From the IMG/VR virus record IMGVR_UViG_3300013133_000066, positions 1 through 24,424 of that record: a DNA stretch of 24,424 bases, one strand, 5' to 3'. The DNA comes from a virus. Below are positions 22,318-24,424 of the stretch, one piece after another. Below the pieces are notes generated by a model that saw only the letters and a list, made by a program, of their open reading frames with translations, was not told where the DNA came from and searched no databases. Both the position numbers and the translations under genes were made by a program. How positions within the stretch are numbered: position 1 is the first letter of the stretch; each line of letters begins with the position of its first letter.

Positions 22318-23334
22318 TTAACGTCGAATTGTCCTGATTCGTTCCAAAATCGGCTTCGTTGTACCGTCTGATTGTACAACTGGACCTAAGGAGCGTTCCA
22401 CCACCTTCATCAATCTCCTTCGTCTTCTCTTTGTAGGTGGTGGTTGACTCGTAGGGTTTTTAGCCACCTGATTCATTTTAAAAAGGGTTTTGAGGGCAAA
22501 GATACCTAACTTAACGCCGGGAGGAGCTACAGCACCGAGTGCTGTCAGCCCGAATCCGACAACTGTCAGAAACCAAGGATTATCCAAGAGTTTTGTCTTG
22601 GGAGAAGGAGGAGAAGGAGGAGAAGGGGGAGAAGGGAGAAAATGTGTTGGAGGCGGGATACTGGGAGCTGGATCAAGGTATTCATTCTTTGGAGGCGGGA
22701 TACCGGGATCAAGGTATTGATTGTTTGGAGGTTTTGGTGTAACATCATTTGGTGGCGGAGGTGCAACTTCTTGAAAGAGAGGAGGGAGATTAGCTTGTGT
22801 GAGTTCAGTACAAATGGTACTCGCAGGAACCATGTACGCGGTAGCTTTCTTTGTGGCAATAATCATACCAACCACTTGGCCCTTGGTATTGAACACCGGG
22901 CTGCCCGATAGACCATTGGTTGCAGGATGGTCCAAATGGTTGGCGGACAAAACTTTTGCTTGTCTTGTCTCAAGAGAGTCCCCGTTGATATATCCTTTGA
23001 ATATGACTAACTCACCCACCTTGGCGTCTTCTGGCGAAAAATAACATAGATCGTGACGACCGGTATTAGTGGTAAAAATGGAGATATCAATAACCGGATC
23101 TTTGTAGATTACATTCAAGGGTTCCCAACGATTGTTGAAACCCAAATCGACACGGATTGTGTCGGGTTTGAAAAGATGACTGGTGGAAATAACAACATTC
23201 TGATGACTTTTCGTAGCGACACAAAAAGCTGTACCCATCGAACAGCTCATTGGTCCGCAAGATTTAATATTATGAATACCTCCAAACAAAAGTGTATTTT
23301 GTAAACACAAAAATGTTAGCAAAAATGATCGCAT
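22318..23334 (-). CDS. Secreted trypsin-like serine protease with Pro-rich stalk and membrane anchor
   Basis: A 338-residue protein with an excellent AAAGGAG ribosome binding site. Residues 1-19 look like a signal peptide. The protease domain (~25-180) has a plausible triad: His53 (ISTSH), Asp83 (VIDISIF) and Ser143 in NGLSGSPVF, the chymotrypsin-like nucleophile motif. It also has several Cys (26, 31, 38, 97, 175) that could form disulfides. Residues ~191-245 are Pro-rich (PPSPPSPPSP). Residues ~253-281 form a hydrophobic membrane segment, followed by a basic tail containing RRRRR. First gene of the late operon. This differs from usual prohead proteases; roles in lysis, exclusion or particle surface processing are open. 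Confidence 0.85.
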   Translation of the reverse strand: MRSFLLTFLCLQNTLLFGGIHNIKSCGPMSCSMGTAFCVATKSHQNVVISTSHLFKPDTIRVDLGFNNRWEPLNVIYKDPVIDISIFTTNTGRHDLCYFSPEDAKVGELVIFKGYINGDSLETRQAKVLSANHLDHPATNGLSGSPVFNTKGQVVGMIIATKKATAYMVPASTICTELTQANLPPLFQEVAPPPPNDVTPKPPNNQYLDPGIPPPKNEYLDPAPSIPPPTHFLPSPPSPPSPPSPKTKLLDNPWFLTVVGFGLTALGAVAPPGVKLGIFALKTLFKMNQVAKNPTSQPPPTKRRRRRLMKVVERSLGPVVQSDGTTKPILERIRTIRR

Positions 23335-23423
23335 GATTTCTCCTTTCTAGCTTCGGGCGTCCAAGATAGACACTTCCCACCCAAAATTCCCAAACACGTT
23401 TTTACTAACATTTTTGTGTTTAC
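23301..23423. repeat. 25-bp inverted repeat enclosing the late operon's first ribosome binding site and start
   Basis: Arms at 23301-23325 and 23399-23423 are reverse complements over 25 bases with one mismatch. In minus-strand RNA that mismatch becomes a U-G wobble, so a continuous 25-bp helix can form. The 73-base interior (23326-23398) holds the ribosome binding site and ATG of the protease gene. The left arm lies in codons ~4-11 of that gene. Confidence 0.9.
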
Positions 23424-23489: not shown

Positions 23490-23518
23490 TTGACAAACGC
23501 AAAATTTTATGCTACCTT
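23490..23518 (+). promoter_or_regulatory. Candidate sigma70-like promoter for the plus-strand genes
   Basis: A perfect TTGACA (23490-23495), 17-bp spacer and TACCTT (23513-23518) preceded by TGC, an extended -10. Predicted start is near 23525, ahead of the palindrome at 23532-23555 and the ribosome binding site of the first plus-strand gene. Confidence 0.6.
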
Positions 23519-23531
23519 AGCGGAACGGAAG

Positions 23532-23555
23532 ATACATCATTTAGAAATGATGTAT
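23532..23555. promoter_or_regulatory. Palindromic operator candidate
   Basis: ATACATCATTT and AAATGATGTAT are perfect 11-bp arms separated by 2 bases, just past the predicted plus-strand start. The ATACATCA half-site recurs at 23452-23459, across the -10 of the divergent minus-strand promoter. This suggests a dimeric repressor site. The RNA could also fold as a hairpin. Confidence 0.6.
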
Positions 23556-23589: not shown

Positions 23590-23874
23590 ATGATGTCTGG
23601 GGCAGAGACCATTCGGATGATCTATCAAGAGTTCGGGATGATCGACGCAGCGAAGGTGCAGGAGCTGGCCAAGGCTCGTGGCGTGGAGGTGTCAACAAGC
23701 CTCGTCTACACCACTCGCTCTCGGCTCAAGCTCACCCAGTCTCGGGAGTACGAACTGGACACTCGGGTCGCTCTCAAGACGGGCGAGGATACTCAGATCA
23801 TGTCCTTCCGCGAACTCCTCAAGCTGGCCGGTCTCACGGCTGACTACCTTCTGGTCTTCGAGAACCCTCATTGA
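23590..23874 (+). CDS. Small winged-helix-like protein, possible regulator
   Basis: A 94-residue product (93 if the second ATG at 23593 is used, which is better spaced from AGGAG). Residues ~6-46 (IRMIYQEFGMIDAAKVQELA, then KARGVEVSTSLVYTTRSRLK) show a helix, short loop and putative recognition helix. This resembles small winged-helix modules with 'GxxVSxxLVxxxxSxLK' common in Planctomycetota genomes. A second helical part follows (SFRELLKLAGLTADYLLVFE). It stands alone on the plus strand behind a strong promoter and palindrome, so autoregulation or control of the divergent late operon is plausible. The gene is GC-rich, unlike most of the window. Specific function unknown. Confidence 0.75.
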   Translation: MMSGAETIRMIYQEFGMIDAAKVQELAKARGVEVSTSLVYTTRSRLKLTQSREYELDTRVALKTGEDTQIMSFRELLKLAGLTADYLLVFENPH

Positions 23875-23884
23875 AAGGGAAGAG

Positions 23885-24139
23885 ATGGATAGTAGAGCGG
23901 TGGCTCGCCACTACAAGCTGTTGATTCATCAGTGTGGACCGCTGCCTGATGAGTTGATGGAAGGGTTCCAGGTCGTCGAAGACTTCGAAGTCGATGATGC
24001 TCTGGTGATGGAGTTCTTGGAGGTTATCAAGGAGATTCTGAAGACGAGGCCCTGCTTCGATCAACACGTCGTGGACCTGTACCTCCTCTGCCCTATTAGG
24101 GAAGGGGTGGCAGACCTGTTCGATCACTGGCGTAACTAA
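23885..24139 (+). CDS. Small acidic helical protein of unknown function
   Basis: Start placed at ATG 23885 after GAAAGGGAAGAG, giving 84 residues; longer in-frame versions lack a ribosome binding site and overlap the gene before. The protein is acidic and helical (DELMEGFQVVEDFEVDDALV, then MEFLEVIKEILKTRP) with 3 Cys. It has no family signature I recognise. It shares promoter and terminator with the winged-helix-like gene 10 bases upstream, so the two are probably one short transcript. High GC and favoured codons suggest good expression. Confidence 0.75.
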   Translation: MDSRAVARHYKLLIHQCGPLPDELMEGFQVVEDFEVDDALVMEFLEVIKEILKTRPCFDQHVVDLYLLCPIREGVADLFDHWRN

Positions 24140-24146
24140 CTCCTAG

Positions 24147-24210
24147 AGACCCGACCACCTTCTCAGGTCCACCTTCTTGGTGGACCCGATTTGGTGGTCG
24201 GGTCTTTTTT
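24147..24210 (+). terminator. Nested double-hairpin intrinsic terminator
   Basis: An outer 13-bp stem (24147-24159 with 24193-24205) ends in TTTTTT. Inside it sits a second perfect 8-bp stem (24166-24173 with 24179-24186, loop TTCTT). It lies 7 bases after the last plus-strand stop. The outer arms and U-tract make a standard strong terminator; the inner hairpin is an unusual extra. Confidence 0.9.
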
Positions 24211-24238: not shown

Positions 24239-24424
24239 TATATCTAGATACTTGCATCCTGGATCCTGGGATACTGGCATCCTGGATCCTGGGATCCTGG
24301 ATACTGGATACTGGCATCCTGTATCTAGATACTGGCATCCTGTATCTAGATACTGGCATCCTGTATCTAGATACTGGCATCCTGTATCTAGATACTGGCA
24401 TCCTGTATCTAGATACTGGCATCC
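24239..24424. repeat. Tandem 21-bp repeats (minisatellite or iterons) at window edge
   Basis: The unit CTGGCATCCTGTATCTAGAT+A (21 bp) recurs at 24311, 24332, 24353, 24374 and 24395, with a partial copy at 24416 that runs off the edge. Before it (24239-24310) are scrambled relatives built from GGATCCTGG, GGATACTGG and CTGGCATCC. Each unit carries the palindrome TATCTAGATA. All frames are repetitive and no credible gene is present; it is 186 bases here and may continue beyond. Confidence 0.95.

Follow-up and report, generated by a model that had tools for sequence, protein, structure and literature searches.

Which function might a long inverted repeat fulfil that encloses the start of the first late gene of an uncultured phage? 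The window analyzed here, a viral record of 24,424 bp, is a fragment without the replication half of the phage. Within it two arms, matching at 24 of 25 positions and with 73 nt between them, flank the ribosome binding site and the ATG of a protease gene, and one of the arms is located inside the first codons of that gene. A first-pass annotation had described this repeat as an RNA hairpin that would lock the start codon and had listed an invertible segment and, last, a paired operator as alternatives. The repeat is real and its position was given correctly; so was the lone difference between its arms, a U-G wobble once read as minus-strand RNA. As for its function, comparative evidence favours the alternative named last. 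We propose, with slightly better than even confidence, that two operators placed head-to-head on either side of the late promoter are bound by a phage regulator, which represses this promoter, probably by bridging or looping, in the manner of gal OE/OI.

On the minus strand the order of elements is arm 1, AGGAG, ATG (23334), arm 2 and the structural genes (Table 1). As listed, the arms read GTAAACACAAAAATGTTAGCAAAAA (23301-23325) and TTTTTACTAACATTTTTGTGTTTAC (23399-23423); from centre to centre they are 98 bp apart, and the midpoint of arm 2 lies ~22 nt into the protease gene. With a score of 22 the repeat is far beyond chance: when 1.1 Mb of related loci was Markov-shuffled three times, one repeat reached 15 and none exceeded it. 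The earlier label 'late operon' fits as well, since terminase, portal, scaffold, coat and a 2018-aa ORF, probably the tape measure, all lie on the protease strand; the coat is P22-type. The protease comprises an N-terminal hydrophobic, signal-like segment (read from sequence) and a proline-rich region. No relatives of it were found in IMG/VR by a peptide-pattern search, while signal-peptide trypsin-like proteases, again read from sequence, are found upstream of the terminase in two related phages (L005 4921-5571 and L009 7652-8263). In the latter, a 24-bp inverted repeat (22/24; L009 7669-7800) has both arms within the protease-like gene, the first arm corresponding to signal-peptide codons. 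Further copies of the window arm (AACACAAAAATGTTAG) were not found in the 24-kb fragment, a scan of IMG/VR for the window arm pair revealed no phage with the same pair, and an Rfam scan of the window at gathering threshold matched no known structured RNA.

Table 1. Elements at the late-operon start of the window, and inverted repeats and arm families of related phages.
Feature	Position or loci	Strand	Remarks
Trypsin-like protease, first gene of the late operon	22318..23334	(-)	Pfam PF13365 Trypsin_2, E 5.9e-10; ATG 23334-23332
Arm 2, candidate internal operator	23301..23325	(-)	Codons 4-12, signal-peptide region of the protease; complement of arm 1
Inter-arm segment, 73 bp	23326..23398	(-)	Includes the start codon and Shine-Dalgarno, and perhaps the core promoter as well
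Protease Shine-Dalgarno (AGGAG)	23340..23344	(-)	Sequence
Weak -10 candidate TATCTT	23363..23368	(-)	PWM 4.1, no better than chance in the window; by analogy only
Arm 1, candidate upstream operator	23399..23423	(-)	Minus-strand sequence GTAAACACAAAAATGTTAGTAAAAA; pairs with arm 2 at 24/25 positions; located like arm 1 in the relatives' inverted repeats
Putative divergent promoter TTGACA-17-TACCTT of the small-gene operon	23490..23518	(+)	Read from sequence
Near-perfect palindrome, core TACATCATTTAGAAATGATGTA	23532..23555	(.)	Self-match; separate element downstream of the divergent promoter
Inverted repeats at or near the start of the terminase operon or terminase small-subunit gene	L006 (two), L009, L012/L013, L019/L020, L025, L026, L034, L037, L062, L064, L074, L136, L141, L146, L156, L183		
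Less clear inverted repeats at that position	L017/L066, L048, L072, L140		
Arm family TTGACAA	L012, L025, L026, L156, L183		
Arm family CACG/TTTTT	L006, L009, L141, L146, L136		
Arm family CTCG(G/A)CA	L062, L074, L019		
Arm family TTCGNCGAA	L034, L064		

Beyond the divergent promoter the window contains elements that are separate from the repeat. The palindrome at 23532-23555 is probably an operator of the small-gene operon. This operon comprises two small, GC-richer plus-strand genes of 94 and 84 aa (23590-24205), both without relatives in the fetched loci, and ends in a terminator-like hairpin (24182-24205). It is followed up to the contig end by 21-bp tandem repeats (TATCTAGATACTGGCATCCTG, ~9 copies, 24241-24424), and tandem-repeat DNA is located upstream of the late operon in several relatives too.

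The phage has no close cultured relatives: the closest one by terminase is ~26% identical over most of the length, coat identity is ~35% or less, and a DNA search against cultured phages gave no match. From IMG/VR, one search for terminase relatives obtained 76 loci and another 229 matching stretches, 80 of which were kept. When a genome collection was searched for prophages, nothing but two short MAG contigs came up; they are labelled Thaumarchaeota and Patescibacteria, which may reflect binning errors. Among the related phages, about 20 with terminases ~45-53% identical carry a similar repeat near a gene start, with arms of 11-35 bp that match each other at roughly 85-100%. This recurrence at gene starts exceeds random placement. 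Of 55 strong inverted repeats in 111 loci, 19 are located where an ORF starts and have their upstream arm in non-coding DNA, compared to a mean of 2.9 and a maximum of 8 in 300 random trials. Automated operon-start calling gave an excess too (6/55, p 0.001), but misplaced several starts, and the gene-start test is consequently preferred. Many relatives lack such a repeat at the thresholds used, partly because their contigs are cut. In three longer contigs, the late-operon repeat was the only one of its loop class (G005, 60 kb; G006, 59 kb) or was accompanied by one weaker additional repeat (G004, 52 kb). A scan of IMG/VR for the L012 arm pair matched only two already known contigs.

In 17 of 21 cases the start-to-start arm spacing is 88-114 bp, and the values seen (88, 91, 93, 96-101, 104-110 and 114) show, by inspection, no obvious 10.5-bp steps. 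The second arm is found inside the signal-peptide codons of the first gene (the window, L012, L025), overlapping the gene start (L009), ending at or few bases from the ATG (L062, L074, L026, L156, L183) or wholly upstream of the start codon (L034, L019, L006, L064). A miniature transposon was considered as origin and ruled out, as the loop sequences are unrelated while the gene-start position is kept. Some phages possess a second inverted repeat with unrelated arms, for example G003 before its primase gene (957-1111) and L037 (1775-1945). Thus one regulator cannot account for every repeat, and functions may differ. The G003 element (L082 957-1111) is a 41-bp inverted repeat with a 73-bp loop that adjoins the DNA primase gene start, and its arms are unlike those of the late operon.

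What lies between the arms is informative for the transcript. In the segment of the relatives that corresponds to the window loop a -10 box is present, in some cases along with a -35 box. Promoters were scored with approximate E. coli -10/-35 weights. The loop plus 12 bases of arm 1 was compared with a stretch of equal loop length upstream of that arm; for 18 of the 21 repeats the loop contained the better -35/-10 pair (Wilcoxon p 0.0007), the extra 12 bases slightly favouring it. The clearest sigma-70-like matches in loops are TTGACG-17-TAGAAT (L006), TTGACC-16-TATAAT (L034), TTGAAA-18-TATAAT (L146) and CTGACA-16-TATAAT (L156). If these matches act as the promoters, transcripts from them lack arm 1 and the main mRNA cannot form the hairpin; the main mRNA of most relatives would then probably not include the left arm. 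The window itself is among the three exceptions, with a best pair of 5.3 in the loop vs 5.8 upstream (TTGAAT-19-TATTTT). Besides the weak -10 candidate of Table 1, an alternative (TAGAAA) is located just upstream of the protease Shine-Dalgarno, and a strict-hexamer scan of the intergenic region gave nothing. By analogy to its relatives, the core promoter of the window may lie inside its own loop.

Several observations suggest that the arms are binding sites. G003 contains four extra arm copies (20-22/25; best shuffle 18), which are located at L084 8273-8755, where a ~370-bp GC-rich intergenic stretch has two inward-facing copies at either side, in the polarity seen for the arms at the late promoter. 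Extra copies were also found in G007 (one 21/24 and one weaker) and in G006 (one 18/22). In addition, the motif GGCCCWGGGCC occurs in 12 copies in G009 (L105-L107), several of them directly before a Shine-Dalgarno, and in six copies in G010; the G009 repeats resemble start-associated or stoperator sites. Arms of different phages, whose terminases are only about half identical, could be assigned by eye to the families of Table 1; all members of a family have their arms in one orientation towards the promoter. The L006 arms are each palindromic (GCACGCTTTTTGGTCCAAAAAGCGTGC; GCACGGTTTTTGGTCCAAAAACCGTGC) and differ from one another by a C/G to G/C change that is compensated within the arm, and the L140 arms are near-palindromic. 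Taken together, the copies elsewhere, the families, the constant polarity and the palindromes fit operators better than an element that acts by pairing only. A further repeat structure, an alternating-palindrome array (TAAGTCCTTGCTACATAAGGACTTA), was seen at L043 4303-4873, and related repeats exist in G007.

According to the operator-pair model, the arms would be two copies of one asymmetric site for a DNA-binding regulator. These sites would stand head-to-head ~98 bp apart and flank the late promoter region, the second within the start of the first gene. With both arms bound, the DNA between them would probably be bridged or looped and the late operon would stay off until the regulator is removed, as with GalR at OE/OI or LacI at O3/O1. 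Repression might be achieved by bridging or as a roadblock. Protein binding, repression rather than activation, and DNA looping are each inferred. As no further arm copies occur in the 24 kb and the promoter scores of the window are 5.3 vs 5.8, its assignment to this model rests on homology of position. Moreover, simple looping predicts 10.5-bp steps, and the loose spacing would count against it.

The main alternative relies on RNA. Upstream read-through RNA containing both arms could close the start, whereas mRNA from the loop promoter, without the left arm, would be translated freely, a mechanism documented for T4 gene e (PMC3014915). A promoter in the loop and an arm 2 close to the start codon agree with such a lock. 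When ten phages were folded (the start coordinate of L025 being two bases off), arm 1 was predicted to clearly close the initiation region of L062 and to close those of L009 and L019 in part, with small changes elsewhere. However, the left arm is not predicted to close this region in the window, L012, L034, L006 and L074. Furthermore, arm copies elsewhere and arm families across phages would be unexpected if pairing alone counts, and of 19 mismatches between arms only ~7 are, by hand count, G-U wobbles. We consider such a lock unlikely overall, while it is possible for some members.

Still more doubtful is the model of the first-pass annotation, in which the main transcript starts at ~23444 and contains both arms, so that a 25-bp hairpin blocks or times protease translation. 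The weak upstream promoter (TTGAAT-19-TATTTT, 5.8) would yield such a leader, and a ribosome could be hindered by a helix from codon 4. The leader that this model predicts does fold into a stable helix on the minus strand (predicted -44.7 kcal/mol, z -3.3), yet the expected closure of the ribosome site was not obtained. In ensemble folding of the window, the Shine-Dalgarno was predicted unpaired at 0.84 with both arms vs 0.41-0.45 for RNA that begins inside the loop and lacks the left arm, and is thus more exposed with the hairpin. The AUG showed 0.43 vs 0.70-0.73, and the region from -20 to +15 was unchanged (0.50 vs 0.47-0.51). In addition, most relatives have the better promoter match inside the loop, and their arm 2 lies before, across or after the start, sometimes entirely upstream of the start codon, all of which argues against a lock on the start codon. 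Finally, an invertible promoter, with a recombinase acting on the arms to flip the 73-bp segment as a phase switch, would have the usual anatomy of a promoter between inverted repeats but is highly improbable, as the two or three contigs available for each of three related phages were identical and uninverted, a genome may contain pairs whose arms are unrelated, and some arm copies occur singly or in tandem.

If operators are assumed, the question of their reader arises. A search for proteins common to the phages pointed to one with ParB_N and HTH_ParB domains (Pfam, from the G003 copy), which has relatives in six contigs examined, G003-G008. Such a protein could bridge sites and is a candidate regulator. 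However, no clear co-variation with arm class was found: G003 and G004 share a class at 58% identity of this protein, while G005 and G006 share a class at only 35%. As the protein diverges without following the arm families, it stays a candidate. The 94-aa plus-strand neighbour was considered as regulator as well, but relatives of it are absent from the fetched loci and Pfam gave no convincing match. The replication half, absent from the window fragment, is where further sites or the regulator could be located. One might speculate that this large uncultured lineage possesses one conserved device for late-operon control, head-to-head pairs of operators around the core promoter, with sites that have diverged to several specificities and whose reader may be a ParB/KorB-like bridging protein encoded by the phage. 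This idea is tentative, and we rate it as rather improbable.

Control of phage late genes is understood in few phages and mostly involves antiterminators, phage sigma factors or activators. If true, the speculative device just described would represent a phage late switch that acts via DNA bridging, and not via antitermination or a late sigma factor. A recurring pair of operators flanking a promoter would be a readable late-switch signature for a broad lineage without cultured members. It would further show how operators can diversify in specificity under a retained geometry, and would provide simple, testable sites for finding the regulator.

Among known systems, E. coli gal OE/OI, with GalR and an HU-assisted loop, offers the nearest worked-out parallel: GalR binds OE at -60.5 and OI at +53.5 inside galE, 113 bp apart, with the galE ATG at +27 (PMC4693257). 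In gal, as proposed for the arms here, two copies of one site flank the promoter ~100-114 bp apart, the inner one just past the start codon of the first gene, centred ~27 nt into the gene in gal and ~22 nt for arm 2 of the window. However, the gal sites are 16 bp long, each bound by a GalR dimer, and strictly phased on the helix, whereas the arms described here are often longer, usually asymmetric, head-to-head and loosely spaced. Two sites ~93 bp apart around a promoter, bound by LacI, are likewise known from lac O3/O1. In contrast to our arms the lac operators are near-palindromic, and no homologous regulator is known here. The T4 gene e leader is similar in having an inverted repeat at a late gene; there, late promoters remove the 5' arm and the hairpin inhibits translation from early transcripts (PMC3014915). 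For the repeats of this study, closure of the ribosome site was in most cases not predicted, and their arms recur elsewhere. The ESAS of Cluster K mycobacteriophages are imperfect inverted repeats just upstream of gene starts as well, and their consensus varies between subclusters. However, they comprise 17-bp arms mostly 4-13 bp apart and are tied to the 13-bp SAS (PMC3203893), while the spacers here are mostly 60-115 bp long and usually enclose a promoter match. Stoperators of Cluster A mycobacteriophages resemble our arms as asymmetric phage sites with many genome copies, comparable to GGCCCWGGGCC in G009. They are single sites that also stop elongation and are bound by a monomeric repressor (PMC9283540), whereas the late-promoter copies described here are paired and face each other.
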